DNA of 64,000 nucleotides from contig NZ_SZUA01000001.1 of NCBI RefSeq assembly GCF_005239095.1, forward strand, positions 1,159,049 to 1,223,048, given 5' to 3'. Shown here piece by piece: positions 2,188 to 56,132 of the stretch. Under the pieces are notes generated by a model. That model did not search any database. It worked only from the letters and a program-made list of their open reading frames with translations, and was not told the DNA's origin. Position 1 is the first letter of the stretch; every line of letters starts with the position of its first letter. Source of the stretch: Luteimonas gilva (GTDB lineage Bacteria; Pseudomonadota; Gammaproteobacteria; Xanthomonadales; Xanthomonadaceae). The translations under genes were made by a program, and so were the position numbers.

Positions 2188-4330
2188 GAGCGGTAATGCG
2201 CCAAGCTTGATGGATCCGCGGATTGCGCGCGAAGTCCGGCGGAATGGTCTGCGCCGTGATGTCGGCGCAATCGGCGAATTGCGACACGGCCTGCGCGTCC
2301 AGCCGGAACCGGCGGAAATTGTTCGAGAAATACAGCGCGCCGCCGGGCGCCAGCCGCGCGACCGCGGCGCGCAATAGGCGCACGTGCTCGCGCTGCATGT
2401 CGAAATCGTCGGCACGCGCCGAATTCGAGAACGTGGGCGGGTCGCAGAAGATCAGATCGTATTGGCCGCGATCGGCTTCCAGCCAGGCCAGCGCATCCGC
2501 TTGCGCCAGGCGATGGGCGCCGCCGCCGAAGCCGTTCTCGCGCAGGTTGTCCGCGCACCATTGCAGATAAGTCGCCGACAGGTCCACAGTTGTCGTCTGG
2601 CGCGCACGGCCCGCGGCGGCATGCACCGTGGCCGCGCCGGTATAGCCGAACAGATTGAGGAAGCGCGCGTCTTCGGCTTCTTCGGCGATCCGCAGGCGCA
2701 GCGGACGGTGATCGAGGAACAAGCCCGTATCGAGATAATCGAACAGGTTCGCACGCAGGCGCACGCCGCCTTCGCGCACGACGATCCACTCGTCGCGGCG
2801 GTCGAAACGGCCGTATTTGCTGCCGCCTTTGCCCCGCTCGCGGGTCTTGGTCGCGATCCGCTCGCGCGGCAACGCGAACGCCTCCTGCGCCGCCGCCAGC
2901 AGTTCGCGGAAACGCCGGCGCGCGGCTTCTTCCGGGATTTCGGCCGGGGCCGCGTATTCCTGCACGTGCAGCCAGCGCCGTTCGGGATCGTCGGCTTCGG
3001 CGTAGACGTCGATAGCGGCGGCGTATTCGGGCAAGTCGGCGTCGTAGATCCTGTAACAGCTCACGCCTTCGCGCTCGCGCCAGCTTTTCGTATTCCTGAG
3101 GTTCTTGCGCAAGCGGTTGGCCACCATCTGCGCGCCTTCGGACAGTTCGCGCGGTTGCGCGGCTTCGCGCACGGGCGGTGCGATCGGGTCGCAGACGATC
3201 AACGCGCATTCCAAGGCGCCGTTGAACACTTGGTATTTCTTCTGCGCGCGCAGGCCGGTGGCGTGGGCGAGCTCTGCGTCGCCGCATAAAAGGCTTGCGC
3301 GCCAATGCGGCACGGCACGTTTCAAGGCGTCGCCGAGTCGGCGATACAAGGCGGCGTCCGCCGCGAGGCGGGCGTCGTAGGGAGGATTGCAGACGACCAG
3401 GCCGCGGTTGGTTTCCTCGGCTAAAGCAGGAGTGGCGAGCTGATCGACCGAAGACGCTTGCCAATGAACCAACTCGGATACGCCCGCCATCCACGCATTC
3501 TGTTCTGCGGAGCGGATCGCTTTGGCGTCCGAGTCGCTGCCGAAAAACCCCGGACGCAACTTCGCGCGGCCGTCGGCTTCACGTTGCCGCGCTTCTTCGA
3601 CGAGCTTCTTCCAGGCTGCCCCGTCGAAACCTAACCACCGACTCGGCGCGATGTCGCCGTGCCGCAGCAACCCCGGCGCGACGTCGGCCGCCATCAGCGC
3701 GCCTTCAATGACCAGCGTGCCGCTGCCGCACATCGGATCCAGCAGCGCGCCGCCTTCCGCATACGCCTTCGGCCAACCGCCGCGCATCAACACGGCCGCC
3801 GCCAAGGTTTCTTTCAACGGCGCTTCGCCCTGCGTCTGGCGCCAACCGCGGCGGTGCAGCGGCCCGCCGCCGAGATCGACCGACAGGATCGCCCTGCCCT
3901 TGCGCAGCACCAGATTCAAGCGCAAATCCGGCGCTTCGACATCCACCGACGGCCGCGCGCCGCTGGCGCTGCGCAGCACGTCGACCACCGCGTCCTTGGT
4001 CCGCTGCGCGGCGTAACGGGCGTGGGTGACCGCCGTGCCGGAAACGTGCGCGTCGACCGCGAGCGTCATCTCCGGCGTCAGATGCCGCGTCCAATCGATC
4101 GCGGCGACGCCGGCGTAGAGCGCGTGTTCGTCCGCGCAATCGAACTCGGCCAGCGGCCACAATACGCGGCTCGCCAAGCGCGACCACAACACTGCGCGCA
4201 ACGCATCGGCTTGTTCGCCTTCCGCGTTGACGCCGGCCGCGGCCGCGGTCGCCTTCGCGGCGCCGAGCGCGAGCAGCTCGTCGGCGAGCAGGTATTCCAG
4301 GCCTTTGGCGCAGCTGGCGAAGAATTTCAT
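2180..4330 (-). CDS. rlmL: Bifunctional 23S rRNA methyltransferase RlmK/RlmL
   Basis: Fused enzyme of 716 residues, the usual length for the family. The RlmL half makes m2G2445 and the RlmK half m7G2069 in 23S rRNA. An N-terminal THUMP-like region is followed by the RlmL methyltransferase with CNPPYDARL near residue 313, and a C-terminal Rossmann methyltransferase with [10 protein letters not shown] near residue 627. The start [15 protein letters not shown] is typical. It is the last gene of a minus-strand operon with the hydrolase (3-base gap) and MOSC genes. Its TAG stop lies inside the palindromic element at 2098-2187. Confidence 0.96.
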
Positions 4331-4333
4331 CGG

Positions 4334-4858
4334 CTACAGCGAACGCAGCAGTTCGGCGAAGGCCCGCGCCGAAGTTTCGACGTTCGCCGACAGCCGGTGC
4401 GAATCGTCGACCATCAACAGCCGCGCGCGGCGGCGATGCGCCCAGTCGACGACTTGTCGCGCGGGAATCAGTTCGTCGTTCCAGCCGTGCAGAATGCTTG
4501 TCGGGACGATGGCCGCATCGAGTTCGGGCGCTTCGCCCATGCGGATCGGCGGCGCCACCAGGAACAGGCCGGCGACCGGTACCTGCAGCGAGACCAGGCC
4601 CGAAACATAGGCGCCGAGGCTGGAGCCGGCCAAGACCAGCGGACCCCGCGCGGCGGCCGCTTGCGCCAAATCCAATAAACGCCGCAAGCGCGCGGGCACG
4701 TCGCCAAGTTCGGTGACTTCGCGCTTGGCGTCCAAGTCGGTGTAATCGGGCCGCTCGTGGGTCCAGCCGAGCGCTTGCGCGGCTTCGGCCAAGGCGGCGA
4801 CCTTGGTCGCGTCCGGACCGCTTTCGAAACCGTGGGAAAGTATGCAGTGGCCGCGCAT
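4334..4858 (-). CDS. Alpha/beta hydrolase (YcfP/RBBP9-like esterase)
   Basis: A small 174-residue alpha/beta hydrolase. The start CILSHGFESGPDATK holds the oxyanion-strand HG. The nucleophile elbow is GSSLG with Ser80. The acid is in ILHGWNDELIP and the His in VDDSHRL, giving a complete Ser-Asp-His triad. Compact size and lack of a cap resemble the YqiA/YcfP/RBBP9 serine hydrolases. The substrate is unknown. It sits between MOSC and rlmL on one strand, with a 3-base gap to rlmL. Confidence 0.85.
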   Translation of the reverse strand: MRGHCILSHGFESGPDATKVAALAEAAQALGWTHERPDYTDLDAKREVTELGDVPARLRRLLDLAQAAAARGPLVLAGSSLGAYVSGLVSLQVPVAGLFLVAPPIRMGEAPELDAAIVPTSILHGWNDELIPARQVVDWAHRRRARLLMVDDSHRLSANVETSARAFAELLRSL

Positions 4859-50926: not shown

Positions 50927-51107
50927 GGCGCCATTTTCGCTGCGCGCGTCTCGTTGTTTGCGACCGGGCGGCGACGCATACGGTCCGACGCATGAACCGT
51001 TAAGCGATGCGTGCGTGCCGGTGGCCTTGCGTCCTGCGGGTAAATGGCTCTTGGCCGTCCTCCGCATCCGGCGCATTTTGGCTCCGTCTTCGATCGGGCC
51101 GTTACGC

Positions 51108-51689
51108 ATGAAGCCACCCTTTTCGCTCGCACGCCGGCGCCTATGGACCGACGCGCTCGCCGGCGCCGGCGTCGCGAGCCTTTTGACCGCCGCGAATACG
51201 GCCGCCGCTGCGGCCGAACCGGACGGCCTTCACGATTTCGACCTGTTCCCCGGCACTTGGCGCGCGCGCCATCGCAAGCTGAAAAAGCGGCTGGCCGGCA
51301 GTAACGACTGGTCCGAATTCGAAGGCACGCAATGGTTCCTGCCCATGCTCGGCGGCGCCGGCAATATGGACGACAACGTGTTCGACGTGCCCGGCGCGCC
51401 TTACCGCGGCGTCAGCCTGCGCTCGTTCGATCCGAAGACGCGGACTTGGGCGATTTGGTGGCTCGACGGACGCGATCCGCACAAGATCGACGTGCCGGTG
51501 ATCGGCCGTTTCGAAAACGGCGTCGGCACCTTCCTCGCCGACGATACCTTCGAAGGCAAGCCGATCAAGATGCGCTTCCTGTGGTCGAAGATCACCGCCC
51601 GTTCGCGCTATTGGGAACAGGCCTTCTCGCCCGACGGCGGCAAGACCTGGGAAACGAACTGGACCACCGAGTTCGAGAAGACCTCTTGA
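51108..51689 (+). CDS. Tandem paralogue 1 (type A): Tat-type secreted beta protein
   Basis: A 193-residue protein. The leader MKPPFSLARRRLWTDALAGA has a twin-arginine and a hydrophobic stretch ending near AAAAAEPDG. The mature domain begins HDFDLFPGTWRARHRKLKKR and contains GGAGNMDDN, FDPKTRTWAIWWLDG, PHKIDVPVIGRF, FLADDTFEGKPIK and WEQAFSPDGGKTWETNW. This resembles DUF1579-like single-domain beta-barrels (lipocalin-like); the family assignment is tentative. It is most like paralogue 3 (52336). Confidence 0.82.
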   Translation: MKPPFSLARRRLWTDALAGAGVASLLTAANTAAAAAEPDGLHDFDLFPGTWRARHRKLKKRLAGSNDWSEFEGTQWFLPMLGGAGNMDDNVFDVPGAPYRGVSLRSFDPKTRTWAIWWLDGRDPHKIDVPVIGRFENGVGTFLADDTFEGKPIKMRFLWSKITARSRYWEQAFSPDGGKTWETNWTTEFEKTS

Positions 51690-51712
51690 ACCGCGAACTT
51701 CGGGAACACGCG

Positions 51713-52297
51713 ATGCGACACGACCCAGAACGCCGCAAGGTCATGCACCTATCGCTGCTGGCCACGGCCGCCGGCTTGCTGCCGCTCGGCGATGCCCTCG
51801 CCGCGGTTCCGGAAGCGGCTGCGCCCGCCGGAAATGCGCACGATTTCGATTTCTTCGTCGGCAGTTGGTCGGTCAAGCACCGGCGCTTGAAACAGCGCCT
51901 GGTCGGCAGCCACGAATGGCAGGAATTCGACGGCACTTGCCGCTGCTGGTCGCTGCTCGGCGGCTTGGCCAACGTCAACGAACGCATCGCCTACCGGCCC
52001 GACGGCACTTCGCACGGCTTGGGCCTGCGCGCCTTCGACGCGAAAAGCGGCACCTGGGCCGATTGGAATCTGAGTTCGAAGGAGCCGCACAAGATCGACG
52101 TGCCGATCATCGGCCGCTTCGAGAACGGCGTGGGCACTTTCCTTTCCGACGACACCCACGAAGGCACCCCGGTCAAGGTGCGCGGCATGTTCTCCAAGAT
52201 CGCGCCGGCTTCCGCGCAATGGGAGCAGGCCTTCTCCACCGACGGCGGCGGCACTTGGGAAACGAATTGGGTGATGAATTACACCCGCACCGCTTGA
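51713..52297 (+). CDS. Tandem paralogue 2 (type B): Tat-type secreted beta protein
   Basis: A 194-residue protein. Leader MRHDPERRKVMHLSLLATAA with RR. The mature domain is HDFDFFVGSWSVKHRRLKQR, LLGGLANVNERI, GLGLRAFDAKSGTWADW, PHKIDVPIIGRF, FLSDDTHEGTPVK, FSKIAPASAQWEQAF and NWVMNYTRTA. The LLGGLAN, FDAK, WADW and SKIAP features match paralogue 4 rather than 1 or 3. Probable export and an unknown ligand. It starts 23 bases after paralogue 1. Confidence 0.82.
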   Translation: MRHDPERRKVMHLSLLATAAGLLPLGDALAAVPEAAAPAGNAHDFDFFVGSWSVKHRRLKQRLVGSHEWQEFDGTCRCWSLLGGLANVNERIAYRPDGTSHGLGLRAFDAKSGTWADWNLSSKEPHKIDVPIIGRFENGVGTFLSDDTHEGTPVKVRGMFSKIAPASAQWEQAFSTDGGGTWETNWVMNYTRTA

Positions 52298-52335
52298 AAC
52301 ATCCCGCGAACCGAATCCGGAATCCGACGAACACT

Positions 52336-52938
52336 ATGGACGCACCCGTTTCGCCTCTGCGCCGCCAGATTCTGCGCGATGCGCTGGCCGGCGCCAGCGC
52401 ATTGACCCTGCTCCCGATCGCCGATGCCTTCGCCTCGCCTGCGGGCAGCGACGGCATCCGGCTGCCGACCGGCGACGTGCACGACTTCGACATCTTCGTC
52501 GGCCGCTGGCGCACGCAACAGCGGCGCCTCAAAGAGCGACTCGTCGGCAGCACCGATTGGATCGAATTCGAAGGCGTCCAGGATTTCCGCCTGTTGCTGG
52601 GCGGCGCCGGCAACATGACCGACAACCTGTTCCAGCTGCCGGACGGACCCTATCGCGGCGTCACCGTGCGCGCTTTCGATCCGCAGACGAAATCGTGGGC
52701 GATCTGGTGGCTGGACGGCAATCGTCCGCACAAGATCGACGTGCCGGTGATCGGCCGCTTCGAGAACGGCAGCGGCGCGTTCTATGCCGACGACAAGTTC
52801 GACGGCAAGCCGATCAAGGTGCGATTCCTGTGGAAAGACATCAAAGCCGATTCGCGGCGCTGGGAGCAGGCCTTCTCGCCCGACGGCGGCAAGACCTGGG
52901 AGACCAATTGGACGGGCGATTTCTTCCGCATCACGTAG
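52336..52938 (+). CDS. Tandem paralogue 3 (type A): Tat-type secreted beta protein
   Basis: A 200-residue protein. Leader SPLRRQILRDALAGASALTL with RR. The mature domain is HDFDIFVGRWRTQQRRLKER, GGAGNMTDNLFQLP, FDPQTKSWAIWWLDG, PHKIDVPVIGRF, DGKPIKVRFLW and WEQAFSPDGGKTWETNW. It shares GGAGNM, WAIWWLDG and KPIK-RFLW with paralogue 1. It starts 38 bases after paralogue 2. Unknown function. Confidence 0.82.
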   Translation: MDAPVSPLRRQILRDALAGASALTLLPIADAFASPAGSDGIRLPTGDVHDFDIFVGRWRTQQRRLKERLVGSTDWIEFEGVQDFRLLLGGAGNMTDNLFQLPDGPYRGVTVRAFDPQTKSWAIWWLDGNRPHKIDVPVIGRFENGSGAFYADDKFDGKPIKVRFLWKDIKADSRRWEQAFSPDGGKTWETNWTGDFFRIT

Positions 52939-52970
52939 ATGGCGCCTCCTCTTCCGCTCGCGGATTGAAG

Positions 52971-53072
52971 CCCTCTCCCGCTTGCGGGAGAGGGTTGGGT
53001 GAGGGCAAGCACGCCGCGACCGAATACCCGTAACCCGACGAAAAGCAGCGGAGCAAGCTCCGCCCTACAAAG
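52971..53072. repeat. Two palindromic elements between paralogues 3 and 4
   Basis: CCCTCTCCCGCTTGCGGGAG element (52971-53006, as at 9402) followed by an inverted AGCGGAGCAAGCTCCGC unit with CTACAAAG end (53043-53072, as at 31665). Confidence 0.85.
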
Positions 53073-53088
53073 CAAGGCCGAGGTACCG

Positions 53089-53676
53089 ATGACGCACGAC
53101 CCCCATCGCCGCCTAATGATGCAGATGTCCCTGCTGGCCGCCGCTTCGGCCGCGCTGCCGATCGGCAAACTTCTCGCTCAATCCGCGGACCTCGTCGCGC
53201 CCGCCACCGGAGCGGCTCGCGACTTCGATTTTTTCATCGGCAGCTGGACGGTAAAACACCGCCGCTTGAAGAAGCGATTGGCGAACAACCACGATTGGGA
53301 AGAATTCGATGGTTCTTGCCACGTCCGCTCGTTGCTCGGCGGCTTGGCCAACATCGACGACAGCGCGGTGAACCTGCCCGGCGGCGCCTATCGCGGCATC
53401 GGCCTGCGCGCTTTCGACGCCAAGACCGGAAGCTGGGCGGATTGGTGGCTGGACGGCCGCAATCCGCACAAGATCGACGTGCCGATCATCGGCACTTTCG
53501 CCGGCGGCGTCGGCACTTTTCTTTCCGACGACACCTTCGAGAACGAGCCGATCAAAGTGCGCGGGCTATGGTCGAAGATCGCGCCGAAATCGCTGCAATG
53601 GGAACAAGCGTTCTCGCCCGACGGCGGCAAGACTTGGGAGACGAATTGGGTGATGCGCTACGCGCGCGCCGCTTAG
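53089..53676 (+). CDS. Tandem paralogue 4 (type B): Tat-type secreted beta protein
   Basis: A 195-residue protein. Leader MTHDPHRRLMMQMSLLAAAS, RR retained. The mature domain is RDFDFFIGSWTVKHRRLKKR, LLGGLANIDDSAVNLPGG, GLRAFDAKTGSWADWWLDG, PHKIDVPIIGTF, FLSDDTFENEPIK, LWSKIAPKSLQWEQAF and NWVMRYARAA. It is closest to paralogue 2. ATG 53089 is chosen because upstream codons run through the repeat. Confidence 0.82.
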   Translation: MTHDPHRRLMMQMSLLAAASAALPIGKLLAQSADLVAPATGAARDFDFFIGSWTVKHRRLKKRLANNHDWEEFDGSCHVRSLLGGLANIDDSAVNLPGGAYRGIGLRAFDAKTGSWADWWLDGRNPHKIDVPIIGTFAGGVGTFLSDDTFENEPIKVRGLWSKIAPKSLQWEQAFSPDGGKTWETNWVMRYARAA

Positions 53677-53686
53677 CCGGTTCCCG

Positions 53687-53777
53687 CTTTTGCAGGGGCG
53701 GCTTTAGCCGCGAGCTCTTTCCGGCAGATGCACGATCTGATTGAAGAGCTCGCGGCTAAAGCCGCTCCTACAAAAAA
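53687..53777. repeat. Paired GGAGCGGCTTTAGCC palindrome
   Basis: Arms around 53690-53719 and 53745-53777 (right end GCTCCTACAAAA), in the gap between paralogues 4 and 5. The left GTAG has mutated to GCAG. Confidence 0.85.
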
Positions 53778-53883
53778 ATCCGTTCCGCCATGAGTGGCAT
53801 CCATGGGGCCGAGTAAATGGCCCTTTCCGATTCGATCCTTCGCACCGCATCTTGCAGGGGCCAATCCGATGCGAGCCTGCACT

Positions 53884-54501
53884 ATGAACCGTCCCGTTTC
53901 GCTGTCCCGACGCCAATTGCTGGTCGATGCGCTGGCCGGCGCCGGCGCCGCCACCTTGCTGCCGTTCGCCAACGCCTTCGCCGGCGACGGCTTTCCAAAC
54001 TCGGTGAAAAGCGCGCCGCCCACCCACGCCAAACCGCCGACCGGCAGCGTCCGCGATTTCGACTTCTTCGTCGGCAAGTGGAACAGCGTCAACCGCCGCC
54101 TGAAGCGGCGTTGGGTCGGCAGCGACGATTGGGACGTGTTCCCGAACACGGTCGATTGCCATAGCCACATGGGCGGCGTGGTCAATATCGACGAGATCGT
54201 GTTCCCGACCAAGGGTTGGGAAGGCATGACGGTGCGCACGTTCAACATCGAAAAGAAGCAGTGGTCGCTGTACTGGATCAACAGCAAGACCGGCGAATTG
54301 TTCCCGCCCGTGGTCGGCGGCTTCGTCGGAGACGACGGCGAGTTCTACGGCGACGACACCGACGAGGGCAAGCCGATCAAGGTCGTGTTCAAGTGGACCC
54401 GGCTCGCTCCCGGCAAGGCGCGCTGGCAGCAGGCGTTTTCGCTGGACGGGAAGAACTGGGAAACCAACTGGGTCGTCGACCATACCCGCATCGACGCCTG
54501 A
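53884..54501 (+). CDS. Tandem paralogue 5 (type C): Tat-type secreted beta protein
   Basis: A 205-residue protein. Leader MNRPVSLSRRQLLVDALAGA is the clearest twin-arginine signal of the five (SRRQLL). The mature domain is RDFDFFVGKWNSVNRRLKRR, FPNTVDCHSHMGGVVNIDEI, FNIEKKQWSLYWINSKTG and WQQAFSLDGKNWETNWVVDH. It lacks the PHKIDVP(V/I)IGRF block of the other four, having GELFPPVVGGFVGDDG instead, so it is the divergent member. In-frame ATGs upstream (53794, 53869) are less likely. Confidence 0.8.
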   Translation: MNRPVSLSRRQLLVDALAGAGAATLLPFANAFAGDGFPNSVKSAPPTHAKPPTGSVRDFDFFVGKWNSVNRRLKRRWVGSDDWDVFPNTVDCHSHMGGVVNIDEIVFPTKGWEGMTVRTFNIEKKQWSLYWINSKTGELFPPVVGGFVGDDGEFYGDDTDEGKPIKVVFKWTRLAPGKARWQQAFSLDGKNWETNWVVDHTRIDA

Positions 54502-54635: not shown

Positions 54636-56132
54636 ATGGCCAAACATGCCGGTTCCGTCTTCTCCGTCGATGTCGAAGGCTTGGATTCGCTGGCCGGGCA
54701 GCCGGCCTACGCACGTATTTCCGAACGGATCCGCGCCGCCATCGTCAGCGGCGCGTTGGCGCCGAACGCGCGCCTGCCTTCCAGCCGCACGCTGGCCCAG
54801 GATCTGGGCGTGGCGCGCAACACGGTCGATTGGGCGCTCAGCCAATTGGTGGCCGACGGCTACATCGTCCGCCGCCGCGGCGCCGGCAGCTATGTCGCCG
54901 CGCATCTGCCCGAGCGCGACGAGCCGCCGCTGATCGCGCCGCGCGCCGCGCCGGCCAAGCGCGAACCCGAACAGCGGCGCCTGTCGCAACGCGCGCAGGC
55001 CTTGCGCGCTTACCCAGGCCACTACCGCGCGGCGACCGCGATACCGTTCACGCCTTCGTTGCCGCCGCTGGAATTGTTTCCGCGCAAAGTTTGGAACCGC
55101 TTGCTGGCGCGCGAAAGCGCGCGCCCCGGCAACGACGTCTGGGCCTACGGCGCGAGCAACGGTTTGCCCGCGCTGCGCGAGGCGATCGCCGCGCACGCGT
55201 CGGCGATGCGCGCGACGCGCTGTTCGCCCGAGCAAGTGATCGTGGTCACCGGCACCCAGCAAGCGGTGGAATTGGCGGCGAAAGTGGTCGGCGATCCGGG
55301 CGATCGCGCCTGGGTGGAATCGCCGGGCTACCAGCCCGTGCAGCACTGCCTGCGCGCGGCCGGCTTGGAAACGGTGCCGGTGCCGGTGGACGGCGAAGGT
55401 TTGGACGTCGCGGCCGGACGCGAACTCGCCGCGGACGCGCGCTTGGCCTACGTGACGCCGGCGCATCAATACCCGATGGGCTGCGAAATGTCGCTGCCGC
55501 GCCGCCGCGCGCTGCTGGGCTGGGCGCAGGAAGCCGATGCGTATGTGATCGAAGACGACTACGACGGCGACTACCGCTACGAAGGCCGCCCCATCGCCTC
55601 GCTGCAAGGCATGGACGACGGCGGTCGCGTCGTCTATGTGGGCAGCTTCAACAAGATCCTGTTCCCGGGCCTGCGCATCGCGTACGCCATCGTTCCCGAA
55701 CCGCTGGTCGCGCCTTTCGTCGACGCCAAGCACACCGCCGACGGCTTCACTTCGCTGCTGACCCAAAGCGTGCTGGCCGCGTTCATCCAGGAAGGCCACC
55801 TGGCGCGCCACATCCGCAAGACGCGGACGATCTACGACGAGCGCCGCGTGGCTTTCCTGGAAGAGGCCAAGGCGCTGCACGATCTGCTGGACTTCGGCCC
55901 GGCCCGCGCCGGAATGCACGTCGCCGCGATGTTCAAGCCGGCGTTGGCGGGACTCGACGATCGCGCCGTCGCCGCGGAATGCGCGCGCAACGGCGTGGAA
56001 GTGCATTCGCTGTCCAAATACGGCAACACGGGCCCCGGCGGCTTGGTGTTCGGCTTCGTCAGCGCCAGCCGCAGCATCGCGCGATCGCGGTTGTTGATCG
56101 TGCGCCGCGCCATCGAATCCGTTCGCGGCTAG
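54636..56132 (+). CDS. MocR family regulator (GntR HTH plus aminotransferase fold)
   Basis: A 498-residue protein. The N-terminal winged HTH is AYARISERIRAAIVSGALAP, LPSSRTLAQDLGVARNTV; the C-terminal aminotransferase fold has TGTQQAVELAAKVV, the YVTPAHQYPMG and EDDYDGDYRY motifs, and PLP Lys in YVGSFNKILFPGLRI near residue 338. It resembles PdxR/GabR, which use PLP or an amino compound as effector. Targets usually lie nearby and divergent; here both neighbours are separate, so the target is open. Confidence 0.95.
   Translation: MAKHAGSVFSVDVEGLDSLAGQPAYARISERIRAAIVSGALAPNARLPSSRTLAQDLGVARNTVDWALSQLVADGYIVRRRGAGSYVAAHLPERDEPPLIAPRAAPAKREPEQRRLSQRAQALRAYPGHYRAATAIPFTPSLPPLELFPRKVWNRLLARESARPGNDVWAYGASNGLPALREAIAAHASAMRATRCSPEQVIVVTGTQQAVELAAKVVGDPGDRAWVESPGYQPVQHCLRAAGLETVPVPVDGEGLDVAAGRELAADARLAYVTPAHQYPMGCEMSLPRRRALLGWAQEADAYVIEDDYDGDYRYEGRPIASLQGMDDGGRVVYVGSFNKILFPGLRIAYAIVPEPLVAPFVDAKHTADGFTSLLTQSVLAAFIQEGHLARHIRKTRTIYDERRVAFLEEAKALHDLLDFGPARAGMHVAAMFKPALAGLDDRAVAAECARNGVEVHSLSKYGNTGPGGLVFGFVSASRSIARSRLLIVRRAIESVRG

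Follow-up and report, generated by a model that had tools for sequence, protein, structure and literature searches.

A five-gene array of predicted exported beta-barrels and its putative MocR-type operator in Luteimonas gilva

We examined a window of the Luteimonas gilva genome (the whole stretch of DNA analysed, 64,000 nucleotides (nt) of contig NZ_SZUA01000001.1) in which five related genes, here c1 to c5, lie in a row ahead of a gene for a predicted MocR/GabR-type regulator (Table 1). A sequence-only reading of the window had drawn attention to the five as tandem secreted paralogues in an A-B-A-B-C pattern. What that reading missed, and what is new here, is a 23-bp direct repeat upstream of both c1 and c5, together with its link to the regulator.

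Table 1. Features of the array and its surroundings (positions in the window)
Feature	Position	Strand	Remarks
Direct-repeat operator 1 (TGGCCTTGCGTCCTGCGGGTAAATGGCTCTT)	51022..51052	+	Putative; 55 nt before c1 start
c1, type A barrel (A1)	51108..51689	+	Open reading frame (ORF) and alignment; twin-arginine (RR) leader
c2, type B barrel (B1)	51713..52297	+	RR leader; 23 nt after c1
c3, type A barrel (A2)	52336..52938	+	RR leader; 38 nt after c2; mature part modelled, ten-stranded barrel
c4, type B barrel (B2)	53089..53676	+	RR leader; 150 nt after c3; sole copy exceeding Pfam DUF1579 cut-off
Dispersed inverted repeat, c4-c5 gap	53688..53775	.	Arms 53688-53719/53744-53775; not array-specific
Direct-repeat operator 2 (TGGCATCCATGGGGCCGAGTAAATGGCCCTT)	53795..53825	+	Putative; upstream of c5
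c5, type C barrel	53869..54501	+	Start 53869 or 53884; RR leader; at least 192 nt after c4; mature part modelled, ten-stranded barrel
MocR/GabR-type regulator, predicted	54636..56132	+	GntR and class I/II aminotransferase domains; likely operator binder

The array and its leaders

The ORFs and their alignment confirm five related genes: aligned identity to c1 is 49% for c2, 64% for c3, 53% for c4 and 42% for c5, and 48 columns are invariant, far beyond chance. The motifs quoted earlier for type A (c1 and c3) and type B (c2 and c4) are present in the alignment, and the PHKIDVP block is indeed absent from c5, which has TGELFPP instead. Two arginines precede the hydrophobic stretch in all five leaders by eye; the motifs are less typical in c2 (ERRKVM) and c4 (HRRLMM). 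An AxA-type leader end is clear, also by eye, in four of the five copies, that of c4 ending in LLAQ. With such leaders the five proteins are likely exported.

The regulator

The product of the gene after c5 matches PF00392 (E 1.1e-16) and PF00155 (E 1.1e-19). Residues 22-477 of its 498 match a solved GabR-like protein, and residues 24-475 match GabR itself. The lysine of its GSFNK motif aligns with that of GAFSK in 7pq9, which we take to be the lysine that binds pyridoxal 5′-phosphate (PLP). By these domain matches the protein is a MocR/GabR-type regulator; a literature search for MocR together with Lysobacter gave titles without this one.

The direct repeat and its spacing

The repeat reads approximately RTGGCCY-N13-TAAATGGCYCT. 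The sequence TAAATGGCYCTT has exactly two exact matches in the 3.63 Mb genome, about 67 nt before c1 and 70 nt before c5. Aligned upstream regions from G000, G002, G003, Luteimonas, Steroidobacter and Dyella have a second TGGC 23 bp before the first (24 for one Dyella C gene).

The strongest result is a test of this spacing, for which we scanned the window and 145 loci (1.415 Mb), counting a site as near when a same-strand family domain followed within 500 bp. A spacer of 19 bases gave 31 sites, 24 of them near a family gene (23 of 30 without L099, which duplicates the contig of L042). Each of the 20 other spacers between 10 and 30 gave 4-30 sites, 0-3 of them near a family gene; together they gave 14 near sites out of 231. 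Since the loci had been preselected for family genes, the control is the comparison among spacings.

A matrix trained without the window sites placed both of them at the top of the window (31.6 and 29.3, the third site scoring 9.3). Over all loci, a score of 22 recovered 25 sites, every one of them near a family gene. The matrix had been trained on 21 of these; the remaining four are the window pair and the sites of the C genes of G002 and G251. A strict pattern run over 297 genomes of the host's taxonomic family gave 5 matches, against 2 in a backward control; these lie before c1, c5, B1 of G003, the C gene of G172, and an own-genome gene for an exported protein of metallo-beta-lactamase fold. 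The last of these, the third strict operator of this genome (L208:1501-1530; C2:721698), is between an acetyltransferase-like gene (by eye) and the metallo-beta-lactamase-fold gene (L208:1644-2513), whose product is absent from the three congeners at E 1e-20. Taken as sequence comparison, these results leave the link between repeat and barrel family well supported.

Co-occurrence of regulator, repeat and barrel genes

Orthologues of the regulator (71-80% identical, E 1e-120) occur in 12 of the 297 genomes, the window's own counted, and in 10 of the 12 a family gene stands beside the regulator. A C-type gene precedes it in 8 (G000, which is the own genome, G002, G172, G204, G251, G272, G282 and G292); in G003 its neighbour is A2, and in G156 it is a divergent gene of another type. 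A relaxed form of the site was found in 8 of the 12 genomes with the regulator vs 11 of the 285 without it (backward control 1; Fisher p 2.4e-8, relatedness not corrected), and nine of the ten relaxed sites in regulator genomes precede family genes. Three Dyella genomes separate the parts: the regulator (74-79% identical) comes directly after a C gene, which belongs to the C clade and is 69-77% identical to c5, and the operator lies before A or A-B genes elsewhere, in a locus that has no regulator. This co-occurrence makes the regulator the likely binder of the repeat.

Among MocR regulators, direct repeats have been described in 27% of regulons and direct plus inverted boxes in 32%; the direct repeats known are separated by two or three turns, and TGT or TGG is present in most motifs (PMC5320631). 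The main text of that paper contains none of the words xanthomonad, caulobacter and DUF1579. With the described regulons (GabR, PdxR, TauR, EutR) the present system shares a regulator of GntR and aminotransferase domains and a repeat operator with a TGG core, but the described targets concern PLP, gamma-aminobutyric acid, taurine and ectoine, whereas the targets predicted here are mostly one family of exported barrels.

Instead of a MocR operator, the repeat could be a promoter element or a site at which a different regulator binds. Some of the sites do have TAAAT in the second box, no sigma-70-like promoter turned up in the region, and one regulator-less genome keeps a site. However, TGGC is fixed in both boxes (this was the selection criterion of the sites) while the A/T stretch before it is variable; repeats in reverse orientation precede the second pair in L035 (23 bp, score 18.3) and L043; and regulator and site occur together, in Dyella also in trans. 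We regard this alternative as unlikely.

Several observations do weigh against a regulon of exported proteins under one regulator. With one mismatch allowed, TAAATGGCYCTT has 8 sites vs 12 in the backward control, and this lack of enrichment means that a single box is uninformative and that only the exact or the two-box form tells. Nor are the sites independent, coming as they do from related genomes. The Caulobacter pairs have, by eye, a 24-bp version of the repeat that the matrix missed, and the Caulobacter regulators are just 38-39% identical. Genomes G137 and G091 have the regulator but neither a relaxed site nor, in the surrounding 6.5-7 kb, a family gene; in G002 and G251 the relaxed site is likewise absent, but variants are present. 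In the congener G001 the best regulator match is 37%, yet a site precedes one family gene (L048); this is the one site known to precede a family gene among the 11 of regulator-less genomes, five of which are nearly one sequence, from genus g30. One further relaxed site in the own genome (G000, C2:854247-854277) is unexplained. Much of the wider family has no such site and has other regulators nearby, WYL regulators being present in 53 of 134 loci (four duplicate contigs included), 49 within 1 kb of a family ORF. Finally, export is assigned from leaders read by eye. The twin-arginine leaders of the earlier reading stand insofar as all five have the arginine pair, but against the twin-arginine translocation (Tat) profile TIGR01409 c5 gave a weak match under the cut-off (E 0.033; 14.6 bits, cut-off 16.7) and c1-c4 gave none.

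With these points counted, we put at roughly two in three the chance that a single MocR-type regulator controls the array as a small regulon of exported beta-barrels with one domain each.

Types A, B and C and the age of the array

A careful tree was built from 64 rows; domains under 110-135 residues, weak scores, and loci L099, L156, L164 and L171 (copies of other contigs) were left out. The A clade comprises c1, c3, the A genes of congeners G002 and G003, and three Dyella genes (support 99/95). The B clade has 13 rows including c2 and c4 (99/96), and c5 falls in a separate and divergent C clade of 11 rows (100/99). The A-B-A-B-C pattern and the divergence of c5 are thereby upheld. The pairing expected of copies 1 with 3 and 2 with 4 holds at the level of shared clades but not as exclusive pairs, which topology tests rejected both for c1 with c3 (p-AU, approximately unbiased test, 0.011) and for c2 with c4 (p-AU 1.2e-5). 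The copies cluster with orthologues of the congeners instead: c3 with the A gene of G002 and G003 (99/92), c2 with B1 of G002 and G003 (100/98), and c4 with B2 of G002 (95/88, the long row L184 lying inside). A recent local origin for the two-gene duplication proposed before is rejected by the tests together with these orthologues. By the same evidence the tree points to an old array, the order A1-B1-A2-B2-C being old and not made of fresh copies.

Gene order in the congeners can be read alongside. The G002 locus runs B1-A2-B2-C-regulator, which is the window order minus A1, and the G003 locus B1-A2-regulator. In both, B1 has no leader (L038:9447-9986; L042 about 4311-4796), and the operator is 77-84 bp from the B1 domain, as compared with 153-238 bp at the other near sites; it is as if a single deletion had taken A1 and the leader of B1. 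The ratio of nonsynonymous to synonymous divergence (dN/dS) between these two B1 genes is 0.13. Dating by dS was abandoned: copies and orthologues alike gave 0.58-0.80 with no rise with age, so dS was treated as saturated.

The earlier reading took the two types, retained side by side after duplication of a two-gene unit, to suggest a pair acting together, for instance as an A-B heterodimer. The two types are indeed clades, 11 of the 13 B rows directly follow another family gene (B1 of G002 and of G003 being the exceptions), and fused proteins of two barrels exist. But apart from the rejected exclusive pairs, B follows other types as readily as A: it comes after an A gene in the window, G002, and Dyella L100 and L102, after a Sec-type gene in Caulobacter L133 and L146 and Luteimonas L176 and L185-L186, and after another type in L184, while Dyella L101 has A with no B in the locus. 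The fused proteins were considered as A-B fusions and rejected as such, since the domains of those in the tree form clades of their own; they are thus no proof of an A-B complex. The heterodimer seems to us a doubtful explanation.

Fold and structural neighbours

AlphaFold2 models of the mature parts of c3 (predicted local distance difference test, pLDDT, 96.1; predicted template modelling score, pTM, 0.89) and c5 (pLDDT 94.7, pTM 0.88) have the barrels entered in Table 1. The closest structural neighbours of both are OlmO and OssO, ahead of nitrobindins near Z 14.7; OlmO aligns with c3 over 140 residues (Z 18.3, root-mean-square deviation (rmsd) 2.0) and with c5 over 139 (Z 19.5, rmsd 1.8). 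The earlier guess of a lipocalin-like barrel was therefore right at the level of the predicted fold. Sequence search of solved structures yielded designed and kelch proteins, sialidases (through an Asp-box stretch) and scattered weak matches, none of which was accepted as a relative. Positions conserved in at least 95% of 95 aligned rows include, in model numbering, W16, W33, R70, W79, R121, Q136, S139, D141, W146, E147, N149 and W150.

OlmO and OssO (7sfn, 7sfp) are described as spirocyclases of Streptomyces polyketide clusters (PMC6490886, and spirocyclase likewise in PDB titles). The fold is shared with the predicted models, but identity to c3 and c5 is only 11-14%, and neither protein is among the 41 PDB sequences matched by the family profile at E up to 10. 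Their setting also differs, in that OlmO and OssO belong to polyketide clusters whereas the array proteins have leaders and DUF763, a PLP enzyme and MocR as neighbours.

Nitrobindins (2a13 and relatives) share the ten-stranded barrel at Z about 14-15, with 7-10% identity to the array barrels, and the array proteins might accordingly be taken for heme or nitric oxide proteins of that kind. As the second-best structural match they align over 142 residues (Z 14.8, rmsd 3.2), and histidine is common at alignment positions 7 (74%) and 20 (79%). The heme ligand of nitrobindins is a histidine near the C-terminus, which defines the family; PDB titles of the nitrobindin neighbours name H158. The last two strands of the array family, 9 and 10, have no conserved histidine column (best 32%, position 133), and c3 has glutamine at position 20, which makes a nitrobindin-like role extremely unlikely.

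Relation to DUF1579 and distribution

By profile match the array family appears to be a far branch of Pfam DUF1579 (PF07617). The scores are 27.3 for c4, 20.8 for c3, 14.8 for c2 and 14.7 for c1 against a gathering cut-off of 25.2, c5 having no match to the profile, and the matches span about positions 11-82 of its 155. The likeness lies in the 55 of 95 mature domains that match at E 0.01 or better, and the difference in this partial coverage and in the single window copy over the gathering score. The terms DUF1579 and PF07617 had no match in the literature searched.

Beyond the array, the genome has four further family matches: a tandem pair (C2:99603-100702), a single gene (C1:667245) and a weak match (C2:761956, 28% identity). 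Relatives at E 1e-10 were found in 82 of the 297 genomes, covering 24 of 54 genera. Named genomes yielded 422 relatives; the best 80, which were kept, come from Dyella, Mesorhizobium, Leisingera, Caulobacter, Luteimonas, Rhodanobacter and metagenome-assembled genomes (MAGs) of several phyla. DUF1579-like proteins occur in Proteobacteria and in MAGs labelled Acidobacteria, Verrucomicrobia, Chloroflexi and others. The leader varies among relatives, by eye, between RR, Sec and none.

Other branches and dispersed repeats

A second kind of locus (L035:7571-10218; C2 about 99570-102217 in this genome) consists of a gene with an RR leader, a leaderless gene, a double NIPSNAP gene and a WYL regulator. 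All four genomes of the genus have the leader-bearing gene followed by the leaderless gene within about 30 nt. Such leaderless partners might cross by Tat on the leader-bearing partner, so that the loci would make exported complexes; the leaderless B1 genes of G002 and G003, constrained as their dN/dS indicates, would also fit. Yet a double NIPSNAP domain comes after the leaderless partner or is fused to it, as would suit a cytosolic enzyme, and this took weight from the idea; leaderless single genes occur in Mesorhizobium and Leisingera, and each window copy has a leader of its own. We consider such hitchhiking very unlikely.

Barrels fused to a C-terminal NIPSNAP stretch were found in 22 loci (L179-L183, L187-L194, L080, L085, L093, L097, L098, L103, L114, L151 and L172), 15 of them in genus g16; those of L103 and L151 have an RR leader. 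Two-barrel proteins with one RR leader occur in L047 (7266-8876), L079, L082-L084, L086, L092, L195 and L196, and a LysR gene is present in five of the nine two-barrel loci read. The branches of the family tend toward different kinds of regulator nearby. A GNAT acetyltransferase gene directly follows the Caulobacter pair in L133 (6054-6503, by Pfam) and L146 (5941-6513, by similarity). Another gene recurs in five of the 134 loci (L116, L133, L135, L150 and L155); we take its product to be class-A beta-lactamase-like.

The palindromic repeats noted before in the later gaps of the array are present, in the c4-c5 gap (Table 1) and after c5 (54526-54556/54558-54588), with a shorter stem by eye in the c3-c4 gap. 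The core of the first two has nine matches with at most one mismatch in the window (2162, 14953, 15007, 26503, 26556, 31087, 53699, 53750 and 54581) where 0.02 are expected, so these are repeats dispersed across the window.

Proposed working and meaning

The regulator would sense a small amino compound or PLP and may bind both repeats as a head-to-tail dimer, one standing before the run c1-c4 and the other before c5. On induction all five proteins would be made, folded in the cytosol and exported by Tat. In the envelope the barrels may bind or convert a small ligand inside the barrel, as their structural neighbours (spirocyclases, nitrobindins and proteins like the fatty-acid-binding proteins) do. 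Types A, B and C would have been retained for different ligands or steps rather than as fresh copies.

A bolder proposal, which we offer as speculation and think rather improbable, is that a dedicated PLP-dependent MocR sensor runs a regulon composed mostly of exported barrels of spirocyclase fold. In the periplasm, A, B and C would act in succession or in parallel on a natural product with an amino group, as its cyclases, isomerases or scavengers. If true, it would amount to an envelope pathway that to our knowledge has no described counterpart, and would give the DUF1579-like family its first physiological role.

We find the predicted regulon of greater interest than the tandem arrangement itself. 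Operator and regulator together make an uncharacterised, widespread family a testable regulon, in which the inducer of the regulator should resemble the ligand of the barrels.

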